Virus record (IMG/VR): IMGVR_UViG_3300044823_000094
Coordinates: 1-23,665 of that record
DNA length: 23,665 nt
From: a virus
Direction: 5' to 3' (one strand)
Part shown: positions 3,732-17,822 of the stretch, one piece after another
Position numbering within the stretch: the stretch's first letter is position 1
Layout: each line of letters opens with the position of its first letter
Position numbers and translations under genes: made by a program
Notes under the pieces: model-generated
Seen by the model: only the letters and a program-made list of their open reading frames with translations
What the model was told of the DNA's origin: nothing
The model's database searches: none

Positions 3732-4983
3732 CACCACCACGCAAGCCGATGTTGCCGAAATCCGGCGAGCCCTCGACCTGTTGACCGCGCCCGGCGGCGT
3801 GGTCGAGATTCGAGCGTTGAAAATCCCCGGCCGTGGAAAGCCCCACATGGCGGCCGGCTACTTTACCGACCTCGACAAAGCCGCGGAAGCGGCGACGACT
3901 CAAGACACCCGCCAAGCCGCCGGCGTCTATCTTGTCTTGAACGAAGTAACCCCCGCTCTATTTGCCCGTTCACCGAATCAGATAACCGACCACCTCGACC
4001 CGACCACAAGCGACGGCGACATAGCCCGCCGGCGATGGTTGCCCCTCGATTTCGACCCGACCAGGCCGACCGGCGTTTCATCTTCCGAAGATGAACATTG
4101 CGCGGCCGAAGATGCGGCCCGAACTTGCGCGGCGTGGTTGTCTTCGCAAGGTTGGCCCGCGCCGATTCTGGCCGATAGCGGCAACGGGGCCCACTTGCTA
4201 TATCGCATCGACTTGCCTAATGATGACCGGAGCGGCAATCTTGTACGCGACACCATCGCAGCGGTGGCGGCAAGGTTCACCGGCGGCGGCGTTGACGTTG
4301 ACCGCAAGGTATTCAACGCGGCCCGGATATGGAAACTATACGGCACAACGGCCCGTAAAGGGCACGATATGCCCGATAGGCCCCACCGGCTGGCCGCGCT
4401 AATCGAGGTTCCCGATTCGGTCGAGGTGTTGCCCGTCGAGAGACTAAAGGCCCTTGTGGCAATGGTGGCCAAGCCCGAGCCGTCGAGAAACAACGGCAAC
4501 GGGGCGGCACAATTTGACCATCGGCTTGACGTTCCGAAGTGGTTGGGATCCCGCGGCGTTTCATTCCAATTGAAAGACAGGCCGGACAAACACGGCCGGG
4601 CGGTTTTTCTCTTGGAACAATGCCCGTTTGACGGCAACCACGGGAGCGGCGGCGAAACCGCGATTTTCCAGAGTGGCGACGGCGCACTCACGACGAGGGC
4701 AGCTGAGTTCTCTGCCGGGCTGTTCAACCTCATTCGTTCGATTTGGCGAAAGGAAACCGGTAAGCGGCTCTCGCGTATGCCCGACGATCTCGGCCGCATC
4801 GAACAATGTGACCCGACCTTGAGTATCCGCCTTGCGATGCAACAGGTTGCACCGTACATTAGGGACGGGCAACTACTGCCGGCGAAGTTCATCTGTCCGC
4901 TGGTCCGATCCGAAAATCCCGGCCGCGAGGCAGCGCAGAAGGCGTGGGCCACGCGGCGACGAAAGGCGGTGCAACATGGCTAA
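3724..4983 (+). CDS. AEP-type DNA primase (primase/polymerase-like)
   Basis: A protein of 419 aa starting at ATG 3724 with AGGGAGGGGG just upstream; an open frame to 3646 exists but lacks this signal. It carries the three motifs of archaeo-eukaryotic primases: hDhD as LDFD (D109, D111), SGNGAH (S152-H157) and the third acidic motif VDVD (D191/D193), followed by NAARIWKLYGT and a Lys-rich ARKG, as in phage and plasmid PrimPol-like proteins. The C-terminal part (about 275-400) has the CPFDGNH and GGETAIFQ segment often seen after such primase domains. No Walker A motif is present, so a helicase is not fused and none is visible nearby. It synthesises primers, perhaps also DNA, for phage replication. 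It overlaps the radical SAM gene by 8 nt. Confidence 0.85.
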   Translation: MVDTTTQADVAEIRRALDLLTAPGGVVEIRALKIPGRGKPHMAAGYFTDLDKAAEAATTQDTRQAAGVYLVLNEVTPALFARSPNQITDHLDPTTSDGDIARRRWLPLDFDPTRPTGVSSSEDEHCAAEDAARTCAAWLSSQGWPAPILADSGNGAHLLYRIDLPNDDRSGNLVRDTIAAVAARFTGGGVDVDRKVFNAARIWKLYGTTARKGHDMPDRPHRLAALIEVPDSVEVLPVERLKALVAMVAKPEPSRNNGNGAAQFDHRLDVPKWLGSRGVSFQLKDRPDKHGRAVFLLEQCPFDGNHGSGGETAIFQSGDGALTTRAAEFSAGLFNLIRSIWRKETGKRLSRMPDDLGRIEQCDPTLSIRLAMQQVAPYIRDGQLLPAKFICPLVRSENPGREAAQKAWATRRRKAVQHG

Positions 4984-5764
4984 GGTAATATCAGGCGTCA
5001 AGGAGTGGGCCATTGAATCCGTCAACTGCATACTCGGCTGCCCACATCGCTGTAGGTATTGCTACGCCTCAGCCCGCGCGGTGAAGTTTGGCCAATGCCC
5101 GAACCGGGAGGCATGGGGAACGAGCTATCATTCTGTTCGCGCCGCTGAGGTCAGAAAGCGGCGAAAGAAGGCCGATGGCCGGGTAATGTTTCCGACGACG
5201 CACGACATCACGCCCGAACACCTCGATTCCTGTCTGGCTGTCATTGAAAACATTTTGCGGGCCGGCAACGACATCCTGATCGTCAGCAAGCCGCACTTGG
5301 ATTGCATCAAGGCAATCTGCGGGCGGTTTTCCATGTACCGCGAGGCTATCCTCTTCCGTTTCAGCATCGGGGCGATGGACGATACCATTCTTGGCTATTG
5401 GGAGCCGGGGGCACCAACCTTTGACGAGCGGCTATCATGCCTCCGGTACGCTCACGCTGAGGGCTACGCCACGTCGGTATCGTGTGAACCATTGCTAGAC
5501 GCCCCCAAGGTCGTCGCTCTATTCAACGCCTTGCGGCCCTACGTCACGGATTCGATCTGGATCGGCAAGATGAACGAGGCCCGCCGCCGGGCGGCCCCAG
5601 GAACCGACCCGAGAGCCATCGCCCGCATTGAGGCAGGACAGACACCGGAAGCCATTCGCATCATTTACGATCTACTGAAGTATGATCCGCTTGTGCGATG
5701 GAAAGAATCCTATAAGGCCGTGCTCGGGCTCGACCTGGCAACCGAGGCGGGGCTGGACAAATAA
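4976..5764 (+). CDS. Phage radical SAM protein
   Basis: The protein has 262 aa. The start at ATG 4976 gives an 8-nt overlap with the primase stop. The radical SAM signature CxxxCxxC is exact (C22, C26, C29 in GCPHRCRYCYA), preceded by VKEWAIESVNCILG. The cysteines should bind a 4Fe-4S cluster that cleaves S-adenosylmethionine. The arrangement resembles phage Gp37/Gp68-type and spore-photolyase-like radical SAM proteins. There is no extra cysteine cluster for a SPASM domain. The C-terminus has helices and KESYKAVLGLDLATEAG. The substrate is unknown. Co-translation with the primase suggests a role in DNA or nucleotide chemistry, which is inference. Confidence 0.85.
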   Translation: MAKVISGVKEWAIESVNCILGCPHRCRYCYASARAVKFGQCPNREAWGTSYHSVRAAEVRKRRKKADGRVMFPTTHDITPEHLDSCLAVIENILRAGNDILIVSKPHLDCIKAICGRFSMYREAILFRFSIGAMDDTILGYWEPGAPTFDERLSCLRYAHAEGYATSVSCEPLLDAPKVVALFNALRPYVTDSIWIGKMNEARRRAAPGTDPRAIARIEAGQTPEAIRIIYDLLKYDPLVRWKESYKAVLGLDLATEAGLDK

Positions 5765-11949: not shown

Positions 11950-13640
11950 TGGCAGTCGCCCCTCCCCCGGTTCCTGGTTCTGATGCTGCCAAAGCTGTCG
12001 ATGCGTGGATGGAACGTCTCGCGGGTTCCAATCCTGATTTTCGCCGTCAGGGTCGCCCCAACGCCTCCGAACAACGCGAGCGGCGTTGGCAGGGTGCAAC
12101 CACCAATCGCCTGAATCAAGGCCATTGGCAAGAGGCAACCGGCCAGCCCATCAACGCCGATGCGGCGGCAAGTATTGATTTGCTCCGCGCCCGTTCGGAA
12201 GACGAGATCAGCAAGAACCCGCTGGCCGAGGGAATGGTCAGCACTTATACGCTTTGCTGCCTCGGCAGTAATGGTCCGACGCTCCAAATTGTCTCGGACG
12301 ATGCCGAGTACAACGCGCAACGCGAGGCGATCTACAACGAATGGTCGGAACATGCCGGCTCGAATCAGCAGCTTGGCATATGCGACATTATGCGGCTGTG
12401 GGTGCGGTCGCTTTTTGGCAGCGGGGAATATCTCGACCAGTTTGTTAGCATTCCCGACGCGCCCGGCCCGGTGAAGATGCGACTGCTACCGGTCCATGCT
12501 CATCGGCTTTTTACCCCGCCTGAGTTTCTCGGCGATCACAGCGTAGCGATGGGCGTTCGCCGCGATCTTCAAAATCGTCGGCCACTTTGTTACTACCTCA
12601 GCCAGCCGTACATCATGGGCAGCTTCGAGGTTTACACCGGCGAGTTTTTGGAGGTTCCGTATCGGGACTTGCTGCACGGTTTCTTGATGATGGAAGAGGA
12701 CCAAGTCCGCGGCGTGCCGTGGTTGGCTCCGTGTCTTGACGCGATTGGGGAGTTGCGCGATTACGTCGATTCGACGCTGGATGCCGCCCGCGCCGCCGCA
12801 GACCTTGGCGTCTTTTTCTACTCGAATCATCCCGACCTGCCAGCATTGCCCGTGGGTGGCGCAAATCAACTTCCGCCCGATCAGCCGATGCAACGGCGTC
12901 AACGACAGTTTTTGCCGCCAGGTTGGGAACCCAAACAAGTTGTTCCGCAACAGCCGCCCAGCAATTGGGAAATGTTCTACAAATCGCGGGTGCAAGAGAT
13001 TGGCCGCGCCGTGAACATGCCGCTGATGATGATGTTGCTTGATTCGAGCAATCACAACTATTCGTCAGCCCGGTTCGATGGACAGCTTTTTTGGCGTGGT
13101 ATCGGTTACACGCAAGGTTCTTTACTCGGCCGCAGTCTCGACCGCATTGAAGAGAATGTGGCAAGGGAAGCGGAGTTGGCCTACCTGGCCGGCGACCGAC
13201 GAGGGCTCAAGCCGTGTCCGCAAGGTGTTGTGCAACGTCGCTGGCTCTGGCCTCGTGCTCCGCACGTTGACCCCGTGAAGGAACGCATGGCCGACCGCAC
13301 CGGCTTGGAGAATGGCGACCTGACTTATGCCGATGTCTGCGCCCGTGACAATCGCGATTGGGTCCAGGTTATCGCCGAGCGAAAGCGAATCAACGACGAA
13401 TTGAAGAAATCCGGTCTTCCGTCCATCCCGGGCATACCGGACCCCAGCAAGGTTCCGGGCGGACCCGGCGGGCAAGACGATGATACGGAACCCACACCCG
13501 GCGGCAATGCCCCTGCAAAGCGATCTGACGATGGCTGGGGACGTCCGGCGACCTGGGGCAGCGAAGCCCGCGAGGGTTTGATTCGAGCATTACAAGCGAA
13601 TGGCAACGGACACAACGGCAACGGGGGACATCATGCCTAA
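11949..13640 (+). CDS. Phage portal protein, lambda family
   Basis: A 563-aa protein from ATG 11949, which overlaps the stop of the preceding gene; the longer open frame to 11805 is not needed. Portal features are the N-terminal helical LLRARSEDEISKNPLAEGMV, the wing and stem region with YRDLLHGFLMMEEDQVRGVP (about residues 238-257), RVQEIGRAVNMPLMMML and NHNYSSARFDGQLFWRG, and a disordered Gly/Pro/Asp-rich tail ending in GNGHNGNGGHHA. The lambda-type portal (gpB family) forms the dodecameric DNA-entry ring. The length matches the family (about 500-550). Its stop overlaps the next gene. Confidence 0.9.
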   Translation: MAVAPPPVPGSDAAKAVDAWMERLAGSNPDFRRQGRPNASEQRERRWQGATTNRLNQGHWQEATGQPINADAAASIDLLRARSEDEISKNPLAEGMVSTYTLCCLGSNGPTLQIVSDDAEYNAQREAIYNEWSEHAGSNQQLGICDIMRLWVRSLFGSGEYLDQFVSIPDAPGPVKMRLLPVHAHRLFTPPEFLGDHSVAMGVRRDLQNRRPLCYYLSQPYIMGSFEVYTGEFLEVPYRDLLHGFLMMEEDQVRGVPWLAPCLDAIGELRDYVDSTLDAARAAADLGVFFYSNHPDLPALPVGGANQLPPDQPMQRRQRQFLPPGWEPKQVVPQQPPSNWEMFYKSRVQEIGRAVNMPLMMMLLDSSNHNYSSARFDGQLFWRGIGYTQGSLLGRSLDRIEENVAREAELAYLAGDRRGLKPCPQGVVQRRWLWPRAPHVDPVKERMADRTGLENGDLTYADVCARDNRDWVQVIAERKRINDELKKSGLPSIPGIPDPSKVPGGPGGQDDDTEPTPGGNAPAKRSDDGWGRPATWGSEAREGLIRALQANGNGHNGNGGHHA

Positions 13641-14805
13641 CACGCTTGATCGTCACGTCCGCCGCTTCGCCAAGGGGGTTCCCAGCAAGCTCTTGCTCGA
13701 TACCTACGGTGCCTTCCGTGTTTACGTTGTGGACGGCGAGCAAATCCGCAATAGCAGTCTCGCTGGCCAGGAGTTTGGCGAATCGGCCAGCCACTTCACC
13801 TTGCCACTGGTGGTGCCCGATGGCGAAGTCTGGATCGAAGACGACGTATCGCTTGATGAGCGGCCTTTCGTGATTGCCGGGGCTCTGCGGATTGCACAGA
13901 CGCATGATTATGCAAGTGGCGTTTGCTTCGAGAAGCATGAGCGTGAGAAGGCAAAGCTGGCCGGCACGGAATGGCCGGGCGAGTGGCTGTCGTCTGACTG
14001 CTACGTCCGCCAAGTTGGCATGTTGCCAAACGGCGTTGCGGTTTTTCTTGTCGATGGCGAAAAGGTCCGCGACGAAACGAAGACGGACTTCATCGAGGGT
14101 GGCCACGATCTTGTCTACCCGTGGTTGCCGCCAAAAACCATCGTCATTGAAGCTGGCTCCCACGCGAATGAGCAACCGTTCATCCTTGACCACGAAGGGA
14201 CGGAGCGCCGCCGCATGGCGAACGGCATGGGCTACGCTAAGGCCCATCACTTCGCCGCAAAAGAAGAGTTTGCGGCTCGACAGCATGGGGCACCGTCATG
14301 GTGTATCGAGTTGATGGCGATCGGCCAGTGCTTGGAGCGGAGTAAGACGGCCGGCGACGGCGATGCGGCCCGTACCGTCTACGCCTCGGCCGGTCCCGGC
14401 GTTCAGCAAGACGTGTCTCCCGCCGGCCAGCTAGCGATGGCGTTCGAGTATTGCCACACCGCACGCATAACGGGTCTTCCTGTCGCTTACGACGAAATCA
14501 CCGGCCCCGTGGTCGTCGAGCCCGGCGTCAGGATCAGCTACGCCCGTCGTGGCCAAACGCTCGATCAGCAACCGGCCTCGGTGCAATTCGATTCGGAGAA
14601 GTTCTCTGAAGATCAGGCGCGGGCTTGGCTCAATGCCCACAACATCCGGGAATACACGTTTCTTCCCGACGTGCGTGACAAGGCCCCTGTGACGCAAGGC
14701 TCGCCACGAGATGAGGGCGAGAAGCCGCCCGAGGGTTTTTCGGACATCGGCAGTTTCTACTCGGCCACGCTTCCCATCGAAACGGAAACGGAGAACACGC
14801 AATGA
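13633..14805 (+). CDS. Virion-module protein with an internally duplicated domain
   Basis: A 390-aa protein from ATG 13633, overlapping the portal stop by 8 nt. Two tandem copies of one domain are visible. The first reads VYVVDGEQIRNSSLAG with DGEVWIEDDVSLDERPF (about 31-82). The second reads VFLVDGEKVRDETKTDF with HEGTERRRMANGMGYAKAHH (about 137-210). The second keeps a HExxER-like element at the place where relatives have HEIVE. A C-terminal segment (FDSEKFSEDQARAWLNAHNI) matches a motif common beside phage prohead proteases; a similar one occurs in the next gene. The role is unknown. The position between portal and protease-capsid genes suggests head assembly. Confidence 0.65.
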   Translation: MPNTLDRHVRRFAKGVPSKLLLDTYGAFRVYVVDGEQIRNSSLAGQEFGESASHFTLPLVVPDGEVWIEDDVSLDERPFVIAGALRIAQTHDYASGVCFEKHEREKAKLAGTEWPGEWLSSDCYVRQVGMLPNGVAVFLVDGEKVRDETKTDFIEGGHDLVYPWLPPKTIVIEAGSHANEQPFILDHEGTERRRMANGMGYAKAHHFAAKEEFAARQHGAPSWCIELMAIGQCLERSKTAGDGDAARTVYASAGPGVQQDVSPAGQLAMAFEYCHTARITGLPVAYDEITGPVVVEPGVRISYARRGQTLDQQPASVQFDSEKFSEDQARAWLNAHNIREYTFLPDVRDKAPVTQGSPRDEGEKPPEGFSDIGSFYSATLPIETETENTQ

Positions 14806-17800
14806 GCGTTGCCACCGCCACAATGCAGCCTGATGTTGCCCCGCTTGGTGCTCTCGCCGCGCCGCAGCCGGAAGCACGAAAGTCTCGCCGCGATCCAAAG
14901 ACCGGAAAGGTCTATAAGCTCGACAAGAACCAATGGGTTGTTGACGACGCTCTTACTGATGACGCGGCCGGTCGTTCCGATTCCGGGGGCTCTTTCGGCG
15001 CGGCGTTCACTGATAATGCGAACGCCAAGCTGGCCGGGAACGAGACCGAGCGATCCAAACATCCTGGCGACAAATACTACAACATGCACTCCGCCAAGAT
15101 TTTGGACCCCAATGAGTACCCTGTTGTCGGATCAAAGGAAATTGATGACGGAGTTACGCATGTTTATGGAATAAAAAAGGGCACCGATGGCCCGCTGGAA
15201 GTTGTCGCCTATCACTTCGACGCCAAAAAGTTCACGCCAAAACAAGCGAAGGATTATTGTCACGCAACGATTGATCGTCACGCTGAGGACTGGATTAAAA
15301 ATGGAGAGAAGTTTTGTGCGCACGGCTGTTTTGGTCCAGAGTCGTACCGTAACGCTACACCTCAGTTGGACGAAGCCGCCCGTTCCGCCCCAGCGGACGG
15401 CACCGGTGCCGTGGTACGCAAGGCCACCGTCAATGCCTCGACGTGGAATGATGTTGATCGGTCCATTGATGCCGTTATTTGCACCGATTCGCCCGCCTAC
15501 TCCACCGAGGTCAAAACCGGACGCGCCGTCAAGGAAGTCTGGCTAATGAGCGGCTTGGAATTTGATCCGCACGTCCGCTGTCTGAACGATCACAAGCGCG
15601 ACGACTGCGACGACGTTATTGGCTCGGTAGACAACCATCGCGTTGCCGCCCATGAATGCGTTTCGCGGATGCTGCTTTCTTCCGCCGAGCCAAAGATTTG
15701 TACCAAGATCAGAGAAGGCCACTTGCGTGATGTGTCTGTTGGCGGCGAGCGCCGCGAAATTGTCACGATACCCGCCGGCCAGAGCAAGAGCATTGATGGC
15801 CAAGTCTTCACGTCTGAGAGATCGGAGCCGCTGAACATTGTCACTCGTTTGCGGATTTATGAGGTCAGCTTTACGCCAATCGGCTCTGACCCGTCCGCAG
15901 TTACACGTTCATTAACCAGTATCACAAGGAGTTTCCCAATGCTTTCAAAGCATCAGCGTAAGTTTATGGTCCGAACCACGGGCCTCGACCCGAAGGCCAC
16001 CGACGAGGAGGCCCAAAAGCACCACGATGCATTGCACCCCGATGTGCAAAAGGCATGTCGCAATTTCGCCGACGCCGAAGAGGCCGACGAGGATGCCGCG
16101 AAAAAGAAGTCCGAATCGAACGAGGCTGATCGCAAAAAGAAGGTCGAAGAGGAAGAAGCCAATCGTAGCCGATCGGCCAACGCGGTTGACGCCGACGCGA
16201 TCCGCAAACAGGGCATGGACGCCGAGCGGAAGCGACAGGCCGAAATTACCCGCCTAGGCGAAGACTTGCCCAGCGAGGTTGTCCGCAAGGCACTGGACGA
16301 TGGGTATACCGTCGAGCGAGCCGCCGTGGACTTCCTTAAAGTTCAGCGGACTCGTGTCCCTGGCATTGGCCCCGGTTCCCCGGCGGTTCAGGTTCGCAGC
16401 TACGACAAGGACTTGACTGCCGACGTTCTTGGCGCAGCCCTCGTTGTGCGGACGATGAACCGGCTTCCGCGACAGGAAGGCAACGGCAGTGTGTTCGCTT
16501 CCGACCCGAGCGAATTGCTTGGCCGCTATCGGCCGGGCACGATGGTTCGCGGCGGAATCGGCGACTGGGTTCCCGACTTCCCGACCGAGCGGCTTTCGGA
16601 CGCACAACGCTCCCGCAACCAGGATTTGTTGAATCGGGCCGACCGCTTCCGCGGCTTGAGCCTGATTGACATCTGCCGGCACTGCTGTCGCATCGACGGT
16701 GTTCAACTTGACACCTTTGCCGCCCCGATGGAAGTCGCCCACGCCGCGCTCGATAGCGTCATGCGAGCCGGGCCGAGCGGCGGCACGTTCGGTGCCGTGT
16801 TCACTCAGAACTTTAATGCTCAGATGTTGGGATCGTACCTCGAAGCCGGCGACTCAACTTTGGGGTGGTGCTCGGAAGGCGATGCGCCTGACTTCAAGCA
16901 GGGCGAACTTGCCATGACCGGCAAGATGGGCGGACTCACGCTCAACGGCAAGCAGCAAGCTGATCATCTTACCTGGGGTGATTGGAACGAGCCGATCCAG
17001 GTATCGCGGTTCAGCGGCATGTATGAGGTGGACGAAACCGACCTCATCAACGACCGGTTCGGCGTGCTGCGTAATGGTAGCCCGCAGGAGATCGGCCTGT
17101 CGGCGCGGCGGTTGCGACCTAATCTGATTTACTCGTTGCTGCTGAGCAACTATTCGGCCGGCAACTATCGAGGCCCGAAGCTTAACCAGTTGGGCAATCA
17201 GTCGGCAGCCAATCAGTACATGTTCTGTGCGAACAACGGCAACTTCCTCGTTGCCTCCTCCAATGACTTGTACATGCCGGCTGCCGGCACCGCTGGCGTA
17301 GCAGGCTATCTGCCCGCCTCGGTTGGTGTCGGCGGTTTGCAAGCCGCAATTCCTGCCATCGGCAACCAGCGGCTTAACGGCGTGCCGTTGAATCTGACGC
17401 CACGATTCGCTTTGCTGCCGAAGGATTTGGACACCAACATCCGAGCCGCGCTGTTCAGTCAGCAACGCATCGGTGCGAACACCGGAGGCGGCACAATGAA
17501 CCCGCTGCAAGTGTTCAACATCGAGCCGCGTACCGATTCGCGTCTTGGAACGGTTGGCAGCGTTGATCCGCTCAACGCGAACAAGGCAGTTGCTGGTCTG
17601 GCCTACCACTGGTTCCTCGCTTGTCGTCCAGGTGAAGAGGGAGCCAAGACGATCCACGTCAACTACCTGCTCGGCAGCGGACGCGCCCCGCAGATTCGTG
17701 CCTACGTTCTCGGCGGTCCTGGCGCTGCCGGCCGCTGGGGCATTGGCTGGGATGTCAAGATGGACATCGGCGCGGCACCCGAGGACTACCGTGGCATGTA

Positions 17801-17822
17801 TTACGCTGAATCCTCAACCTGA
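14802..17822 (+). CDS. Prohead protease-major capsid protein fusion
   Basis: A 1006-aa protein starting at ATG 14802 (ATGA overlap). Residues 95-170 form an accessory domain (YHFDAKKFTPKQAKDYC). Residues about 240-375 form a prohead protease of the HK97/U35-like type: NDHKRDDCDDVIGSV with His264, LRDVSVGG with Ser312, and IYEVSFTPIGSDPSA with Glu354 as likely catalytic residues. Residues about 420-475 are a highly charged coiled-coil linker (EEADEDAAKKK, KKKVEEEEANRSRS), probably a scaffold. From about 525 the major capsid protein follows, including the segment at 659-677 (TFGAVFTQNFNAQML). It should be processed during head maturation. An internal ribosome binding site allows separate synthesis of the capsid part. 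Confidence 0.85.
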   Translation: MSVATATMQPDVAPLGALAAPQPEARKSRRDPKTGKVYKLDKNQWVVDDALTDDAAGRSDSGGSFGAAFTDNANAKLAGNETERSKHPGDKYYNMHSAKILDPNEYPVVGSKEIDDGVTHVYGIKKGTDGPLEVVAYHFDAKKFTPKQAKDYCHATIDRHAEDWIKNGEKFCAHGCFGPESYRNATPQLDEAARSAPADGTGAVVRKATVNASTWNDVDRSIDAVICTDSPAYSTEVKTGRAVKEVWLMSGLEFDPHVRCLNDHKRDDCDDVIGSVDNHRVAAHECVSRMLLSSAEPKICTKIREGHLRDVSVGGERREIVTIPAGQSKSIDGQVFTSERSEPLNIVTRLRIYEVSFTPIGSDPSAVTRSLTSITRSFPMLSKHQRKFMVRTTGLDPKATDEEAQKHHDALHPDVQKACRNFADAEEADEDAAKKKSESNEADRKKKVEEEEANRSRSANAVDADAIRKQGMDAERKRQAEITRLGEDLPSEVVRKALDDGYTVERAAVDFLKVQRTRVPGIGPGSPAVQVRSYDKDLTADVLGAALVVRTMNRLPRQEGNGSVFASDPSELLGRYRPGTMVRGGIGDWVPDFPTERLSDAQRSRNQDLLNRADRFRGLSLIDICRHCCRIDGVQLDTFAAPMEVAHAALDSVMRAGPSGGTFGAVFTQNFNAQMLGSYLEAGDSTLGWCSEGDAPDFKQGELAMTGKMGGLTLNGKQQADHLTWGDWNEPIQVSRFSGMYEVDETDLINDRFGVLRNGSPQEIGLSARRLRPNLIYSLLLSNYSAGNYRGPKLNQLGNQSAANQYMFCANNGNFLVASSNDLYMPAAGTAGVAGYLPASVGVGGLQAAIPAIGNQRLNGVPLNLTPRFALLPKDLDTNIRAALFSQQRIGANTGGGTMNPLQVFNIEPRTDSRLGTVGSVDPLNANKAVAGLAYHWFLACRPGEEGAKTIHVNYLLGSGRAPQIRAYVLGGPGAAGRWGIGWDVKMDIGAAPEDYRGMYYAESST
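15939..17822 (+). CDS. Nested start: scaffold plus major capsid protein
   Basis: AAGGAG at 15926-15931 lies exactly 7 nt before ATG 15939, in frame with the 14802 gene (Met380). The resulting 627-aa product lacks the protease domain and starts with MLSKHQRKFMVRTTGL. It contains the charged linker and the capsid domain. The position fits the need to make far more capsid than protease, as with lambda C and the nested Nu3. I infer that most capsid protein comes from this start. The alternative is that the sequence is coincidental and only proteolysis separates the domains. Confidence 0.6.
   Translation: MLSKHQRKFMVRTTGLDPKATDEEAQKHHDALHPDVQKACRNFADAEEADEDAAKKKSESNEADRKKKVEEEEANRSRSANAVDADAIRKQGMDAERKRQAEITRLGEDLPSEVVRKALDDGYTVERAAVDFLKVQRTRVPGIGPGSPAVQVRSYDKDLTADVLGAALVVRTMNRLPRQEGNGSVFASDPSELLGRYRPGTMVRGGIGDWVPDFPTERLSDAQRSRNQDLLNRADRFRGLSLIDICRHCCRIDGVQLDTFAAPMEVAHAALDSVMRAGPSGGTFGAVFTQNFNAQMLGSYLEAGDSTLGWCSEGDAPDFKQGELAMTGKMGGLTLNGKQQADHLTWGDWNEPIQVSRFSGMYEVDETDLINDRFGVLRNGSPQEIGLSARRLRPNLIYSLLLSNYSAGNYRGPKLNQLGNQSAANQYMFCANNGNFLVASSNDLYMPAAGTAGVAGYLPASVGVGGLQAAIPAIGNQRLNGVPLNLTPRFALLPKDLDTNIRAALFSQQRIGANTGGGTMNPLQVFNIEPRTDSRLGTVGSVDPLNANKAVAGLAYHWFLACRPGEEGAKTIHVNYLLGSGRAPQIRAYVLGGPGAAGRWGIGWDVKMDIGAAPEDYRGMYYAESST

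Follow-up and report, generated by a model that had tools for sequence, protein, structure and literature searches.

A conserved, probable internal start codon at the protease-capsid joint of a fused phage head gene

Our analysis suggests that a fused phage gene very probably encodes two in-frame products, the shorter of which would begin at an internal start codon, ATG 15939. The sequence examined is a whole viral record, IMGVR_UViG_3300044823_000094, of 23,665 bases (hereafter the window), in which one open reading frame (ORF) holds a protease, a helical middle region and an HK97-fold capsid. The evidence consists of the Shine-Dalgarno (SD) motif itself, its reading frame, its position at a domain boundary, its conservation, the selection seen at synonymous sites, the weak mRNA structure around it and the match to the capsid start of relatives with separate genes. 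The features on which the argument depends are as follows.

14802 to 17822, plus strand: fused protease-scaffold-capsid gene, an ORF of 1006 aa
14802 to 15413, plus strand: N-terminal extension, residues 1-204, of low model confidence and mostly missing from relatives
15414 to 15911, plus strand: predicted prohead protease domain, about residues 205-370 (T4 gp21 fold, Z 11.1; invariant His264 and Ser312)
15912 to 15938, plus strand: linker, residues 371-379, modelled as disordered (pLDDT under 50) and containing the SD in its codons
15926 to 15931, plus strand: internal SD, AAGGAG, present in the sequence and conserved in relatives
15939 to 15941, plus strand: putative internal start codon ATG, Met380 (aligned ATG or GTG in 56 of 63 representatives; gene start in the split loci L054, L073 and L077)
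15939 to 17822, plus strand: proposed nested product of 627 aa, scaffold-like region plus capsid (from the ORF, domain matches and structure model)
15939 to 16376, plus strand: helical, charged region resembling a scaffold (delta domain), about residues 380-525 (model secondary structure, and a place as in HK97 gp5; function inferred)
16779 to 17801, plus strand: capsid domain PF25209 Phage_capsid_4, residues 660-1000 (family match; HK97 fold)

Seven bases separate AAGGAG from ATG 15939, which is in frame with ATG 14802, as (15939-14802)/3 = 379, making it Met380. An earlier note on this DNA had claimed the AAGGAG, the 7-nt spacing, the in-frame ATG and product lengths of 1006 and 627 aa, and the coordinates and ORF translation agree with it on every point. 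The fusion gene's ATG at 14802 overlaps the stop of the upstream ORF 13600-14805, and the gene has a portal gene (PF05136) upstream and a head-decoration-like ORF (phrog_20658) downstream. The ORF 4832-5761, upstream of the terminase gene, gave a sub-threshold Radical SAM match (PF04055, 1.4e-4). The roughly 200 extra N-terminal residues (14802-15413) contain a small beta/alpha segment near 108-170, modelled with low confidence, and most relatives do without them; long ORFs are also found in L049 (1005 codons) and L079 (965 codons).

The domain assignments and model boundaries put Met380 exactly between the protease and the scaffold-capsid part. The whole-protein model (61 sequences; mean pLDDT 74, pTM 0.53) has a confident beta-rich domain at about residues 213-370, helices between 383 and 518 and the capsid after them. 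The position at a domain boundary that had been claimed is thereby borne out: the modelled protease fold extends to about 370, residues 371-379 are disordered and order resumes from 380. Modelled alone, the protease domain reached a pLDDT of 85, and a second structure alignment likened it to T4 gp21 (5jbl_C; Z 11.1, 2.8 A over 129 residues) and to herpesvirus proteases (Z 5-7); Foldseek with the protease-domain model returned no match below E 0.001, the same proteins ranking high. His264 (15591-15593) and Ser312 (15735-15737), which we take to be the catalytic pair of the prohead protease S78 family, are invariant in all 50 of 50 aligned sequences. Pfam gave no family for this gene's protease domain, PF04586 Peptidase_S78 included, and no ClpP match in this protein; PF04586 is matched by 25 of the 50 aligned members. 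Fold and motifs place the modelled protease in the S78/prohead-protease type and not with the ClpP-like enzymes. The 627-aa part matches PF25209 Phage_capsid_4 (Pfam, 7.6e-17; residues 660-1000 in full protein numbering), and the capsid part is similar to HK97-fold shells (HK97 and other capsids, E about 1e-7 to 1e-6); by fold and family match, the capsid domain is predicted to be an HK97-fold major capsid protein. PHROG 4523, 'major head and protease protein', is matched by both the C-terminal (1.6e-30) and the N-terminal part (8.9e-13). A helical, scaffold-like stretch spans residues 380 to about 525 of the model, and the PF25209 capsid is encoded in the same ORF as this region, not separately.

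Could the motif be there by chance? The window has one AAGGAGN{4,10}ATG, where 0.88 would be expected over both strands, so that a match somewhere is unsurprising and the lone sequence makes a weak case, which is carried by the relatives. However, the expectation falls to about 0.02 when scaled to one strand, one frame and this gene, and to about 0.0006 within 30 codons of the boundary; frame, place and conservation make a chance origin unlikely. The SD energy at Met380 (-8.0) is the second strongest of 21 in-frame ATGs, that at the gene's own start ATG 14802 being -6.6, and 300 synonymous recodings of the boundary region reached this sequence's SD value with p = 0.003. SD energies were scored against a generic 16S tail, from which that of the host may differ. 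The strongest in-frame SD (-10.1) belongs to Met899 (17496), yet we rejected it as a real internal start: it lies inside the capsid fold, a product begun there would have 108 aa, and in one alignment none of the other five sequences has Met at this position. The SD-like sequence before it, within the capsid domain, is probably due to chance.

Scans provided 82 further loci, including the best 80 of 103 from one scan and, from a scan of genome contigs, 2 loci, both in one Gemmatales MAG. Among the matches listed, 77 of the 83 records (this one included) are one fused ORF, three are split (L054, L073, L077) and three are cut off at the 5' end. Collapsing them to at most 60% common 4-mers left 63 non-redundant representatives, this sequence included. 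Of these 63, 56 have an ATG (51) or GTG (5) between -1 and +4 residues from the position aligned with Met380, the aligned boundary starts having been picked without use of the SD. Conservation of the AAGGAG-ATG pair in homologous fusions, which the earlier note had named as the thing to look for, is borne out: 56 of the 63 representatives have the aligned ATG or GTG, together with selection at synonymous sites. The residues after the boundary start are conserved, typically MNPKLRKYLESIGLR on this gene's side of the family and MTFEEWLxSxGF on the other side, and those preceding it are not. Where Val takes the place of the boundary Met, its codon is GTG in five of five cases, compared with 36% of Val codons in general. 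The median SD duplex energy is -7.4 at boundary starts vs -2.6 at 957 other internal ATGs (p 2e-25), and an exact SD core of four or more bases is found at 93% of the former vs 16% of the latter. Two other Met columns, conserved in at least half of the representatives, have SD energies of -1.7 and -4.6. Since the representatives are related to one another, these and the following p-values are optimistic.

An SD-like sequence might also be a by-product of protein sequence, if a linker rich in Lys, Glu, Arg and Gly has codons that resemble an SD by accident. In the region-wide null, the amino-acid sequence alone does yield SD-like stretches (median of medians -5.7), and in ClpP-type fusions (see below) the upstream residues are fairly conserved (KRIEEFEKMP), with the SD in one phase in 32 of the 33 that have a core. 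However, in this gene's family the SD core at the boundary is represented in all three codon phases, and out-of-frame ATG and GTG codons of the same linkers lack an SD (-3.0, n=131, p 1e-20 vs boundary starts). Synonymous recoding of the six upstream codons, done with each gene's own codon usage and at the aligned start only, gave a mean rank of 0.24 (p 2.2e-9, n=56), while control ATGs ranked at 0.49 (n=224). This test was added to a region-wide synonymous shuffle, kept as the conservative result, whose effect is modest (Fisher p 0.0016; 8 of 63 below 0.05; 46 of 63 beyond the null median) because a best-site scan over a 60-codon linker dilutes the signal. The synonymous bias at the boundary, which control ATGs lack in all three fusion groups that we analysed, speaks against linker composition as the sole cause. 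With mRNA structure reduced as well, an accident of linker codons is barely credible.

The mRNA around boundary starts is less structured than at the same genes' other ATGs (median -12.3 vs -17.8 kcal/mol), with weaker structure at the boundary start in 51 of 56 genes (GC-corrected p 3e-4), and the A content just after the boundary start is 0.36 vs 0.21. It could be supposed that the SD-like sequence does not serve initiation, but slows ribosomes between the domains for folding. The site does lie in a linker between independently folding domains. However, pausing needs neither an ATG or GTG at initiation spacing nor the replacement of ATG by GTG, and it needs neither an A-rich start nor identity with the start codon of a split gene; we regard it as highly improbable.

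Internal starts are weak or displaced in a minority of the family. Seven of the 63 representatives are without an aligned start. In four of them, L025, L052, L079 and L081, an ATG preceded by an SD-like sequence occurs some residues beyond the aligned place, and L064, L066 and L070 have no convincing start site in the boundary region. SD pairing is weak (above -5) in 5 of the 56 with a boundary start. L064, L066 and L074 form one clade (100/100) of fused genes whose internal start is weak or missing, which suggests that it has been weakened or lost there.

The split relatives show what this codon does when the two genes are apart. In L054, L073 and L077 the two ORFs overlap in an ATGA at the end of the protease ORF, whose ATG starts the capsid ORF; this ATG is preceded by AAAGGAG, TAGGAG and GAAGGAG, respectively, and the capsid protein opens with MNPRLIAYLRSLGL and the like. 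In place and signal, the proposed internal start is the ordinary gene start of these relatives, as far as sequences can tell, and the internal-start reading gains support from this codon's role as the real beginning of the capsid gene when protease and capsid are encoded apart. The three split loci form one clade (100/100) among 65 capsid sequences and therefore count as one event, either a fusion or a fission. L158 was considered as a further split and rejected: its frame break lies past the boundary, its translation has an ambiguous residue, and an assembly error is the probable cause. The L171 gene is in three fragments. In the Mu-like locus L209 (263-2536; see below) protease and capsid ORFs are separate, with a strong-SD capsid ATG just after the protease stop; it is a possible further split and, as a single case, was left out of the count.

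The existence of split relatives with the same signal, together with the possibility that a fusion arose from a lost frame break, raises the question of whether the SD and ATG are merely left over from once-separate genes, with only the long polyprotein now being made and cut. However, the signal has been retained in fused lineages whose median terminal branch is 0.5 changes per site, and in three fusion groups selection still acts on synonymous sites. Moreover, five representatives have GTG, still a start codon, where a relic would have decayed. We therefore consider a relic very unlikely, and retain functional internal initiation as the preferred reading.

The same codon also serves as a joint for a different protease. 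In two loci, an unrelated S49 protease, in place of the S78 type, is fused to the same capsid family at the same start codon.

L067, 2511-4910: S49-capsid fusion, SD energy at the joint ATG -6.6
L082, 2520-5006: S49-capsid fusion, SD energy at the joint ATG -9.1

As the S49 protease joins at the same ATG with its SD, the start codon is a joint for protease exchange too. L082 and L083, two contigs of one Gemmatales (Planctomycetota) MAG, carry one S49 fusion and one fusion of the S78-type alignment, which hints at a planctomycete host for relatives of this fusion.

Internal start signals are found in other fusion groups as well. We assembled the best 80 scan matches each for ClpP fusions and for Mu-like S78 fusions; among the matches listed, 80 of 87 ClpP loci and 83 of 87 Mu-like loci are full fusions. 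A start lies within six residues of the reference Met in 37 of 50 ClpP representatives (SD -6.0 vs -2.1, p 1e-13), and one was found in 41 of 58 Mu-like representatives (SD -7.0 vs -2.2, p 3.5e-17). If the remainder are assigned their nearest ATG between -25 and +45, these counts rise to 48 of 50 (83% at or below -5) and 58 of 58 (91% at or below -5). The synonymous SD bias recurs in both groups (ClpP p 1e-9, Mu-like S78 p 2e-9; none at control ATGs), and mRNA structure is reduced at their boundary starts too. In addition, we collected records of 23 isolated phages whose protease and capsid are fused (15 S78-type, 8 ClpP-type) and of one with separate genes. A joint ATG with an SD energy of -5 or below is present in 12 of 15 S78-type and 8 of 8 ClpP-type phages, compared with 18% and 19% of their other ATGs, respectively; F10 and its relatives (ClpP type) carry the signal, and RcHotPocket has an SD and ATG at the protease-capsid joint. 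Because the boundary Met of these 23 phages was picked by eye with SD energies visible, the p-values for them are not blind; the alignment-based sets are more reliable, though in the ClpP and Mu-like sets the reference Met was still chosen by us.

We propose the following scheme for the two products. Initiation at ATG 14802 would give the 1006-aa protease-scaffold-capsid protein, and initiation at ATG 15939, guided by AAGGAG at 15926-15931, would give the 627-aa scaffold-capsid protein without the protease. Both proteins would be made, presumably with the short one dominant. Long and short chains might co-assemble via their common scaffold-capsid part, so that only some of the subunits would carry protease into the procapsid interior, limiting its number as with C in lambda; the protease could then remove the scaffold region and free itself. 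The SD at the first ATG or GTG of the full ORF has a median of -6.0 (best of the first three, -7.9) vs -7.4 at the internal start, no clear difference, and SD energies do not settle the ratio of protease-capsid to capsid. Since residues 380 to about 525 are scaffold-like, the mature capsid should be trimmed; a processed virion N-terminus would thus not contradict internal initiation, as the earlier note had supposed it would, and virion N-termini alone are no test of it.

This scheme may matter beyond the window. Fused protease-capsid genes are widespread yet annotated as a single protein: the fusion is entered as a single CDS in each of the 23 fused records and an internal start is marked in none of them, so that the N-terminus assumed for these phages in precursor lengths, capsid models and proteomics searches may be wrong. 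It is hard to see how a shell could assemble if each of its hundreds of subunits bore a protease. A conserved internal start would remove that difficulty, and for many phages it would indicate which chain is the real capsid precursor. We lean, with only a little more than even confidence, towards a rule for tailed phages, by which any fusion of a maturation protease (S78, ClpP/S14 or S49) to a capsid precursor keeps a functional internal start at the joint, one gene setting the protease-to-capsid ratio, and by which this start codon is also the joint for protease swaps and splits.

Several known systems share parts of this arrangement. In herpesviruses, UL26/UL26.5 is a protease-scaffold gene with a nested in-frame scaffold; UL26.5, however, is nested by a separate transcript, not by internal translation, and the capsid is not included. 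The UL26 protease has a fold related to that of the protease domain modelled here (Z 5-7).

Gifsy-2, studied by Effantin et al. in 2010, reportedly has protease, scaffold and HK97-fold capsid in one gene. MD8 and its kin also have protease, scaffold and capsid fused in one gene, according to PMC8508860. The present gene resembles those of MD8 and Gifsy-2 in combining protease, scaffold and HK97-fold capsid, but their protease is ClpP-like, whereas here it appears to be of the S78 type; the text of the MD8 paper makes no mention of 'internal' or 'start codon'. The same source describes the HK97 delta domain as preceding the capsid in gp5, with the protease gp4 as a separate gene. The proposed 627-aa product is like HK97 gp5 in having a helical delta-like region before an HK97-fold capsid, but HK97 encodes the protease gp4 apart from gp5, and here there is one gene. 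Phages of the Rhodobacter RcC cluster have a 'fused major capsid and protease' (PMC8601537), an S78-type fusion of the same capsid family as here, and there, too, 'internal' and 'start codon' are not mentioned. A search of the open literature brought up no article describing an internal start in such a fusion; one may exist in the subscription literature, to which Effantin et al. 2010 on Gifsy-2 belongs.

Already known, then, are the protease-scaffold-capsid fusion and the nesting of a scaffold in the lambda protease gene. In lambda, the scaffold gene Nu3 is nested in frame within the protease gene C and has an internal start with an SD. C and Nu3 were reportedly described as one gene by Shaw and Murialdo in 1980, and they are likewise treated as one gene in PMC8508860. 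The present gene is like C/Nu3 in having an N-terminal protease, a scaffold-like C-terminal part and an in-frame internal SD start at the joint, and the common C-terminus would carry the protease into the procapsid. The likeness to C/Nu3 drawn in the earlier note therefore stands at the sequence level for the internal in-frame start with its own SD at the protease-scaffold joint, but only in part for the product, since the capsid is included and the nested protein is not scaffold-only. There are two differences: the lambda capsid protein E is a separate gene, whereas here the capsid lies inside the nested product, and the lambda protease is S49-like, whereas here it is predicted to be S78-type. 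The arrangement thus reads as a lambda-type nesting, predicted from sequence, that is extended to the capsid.
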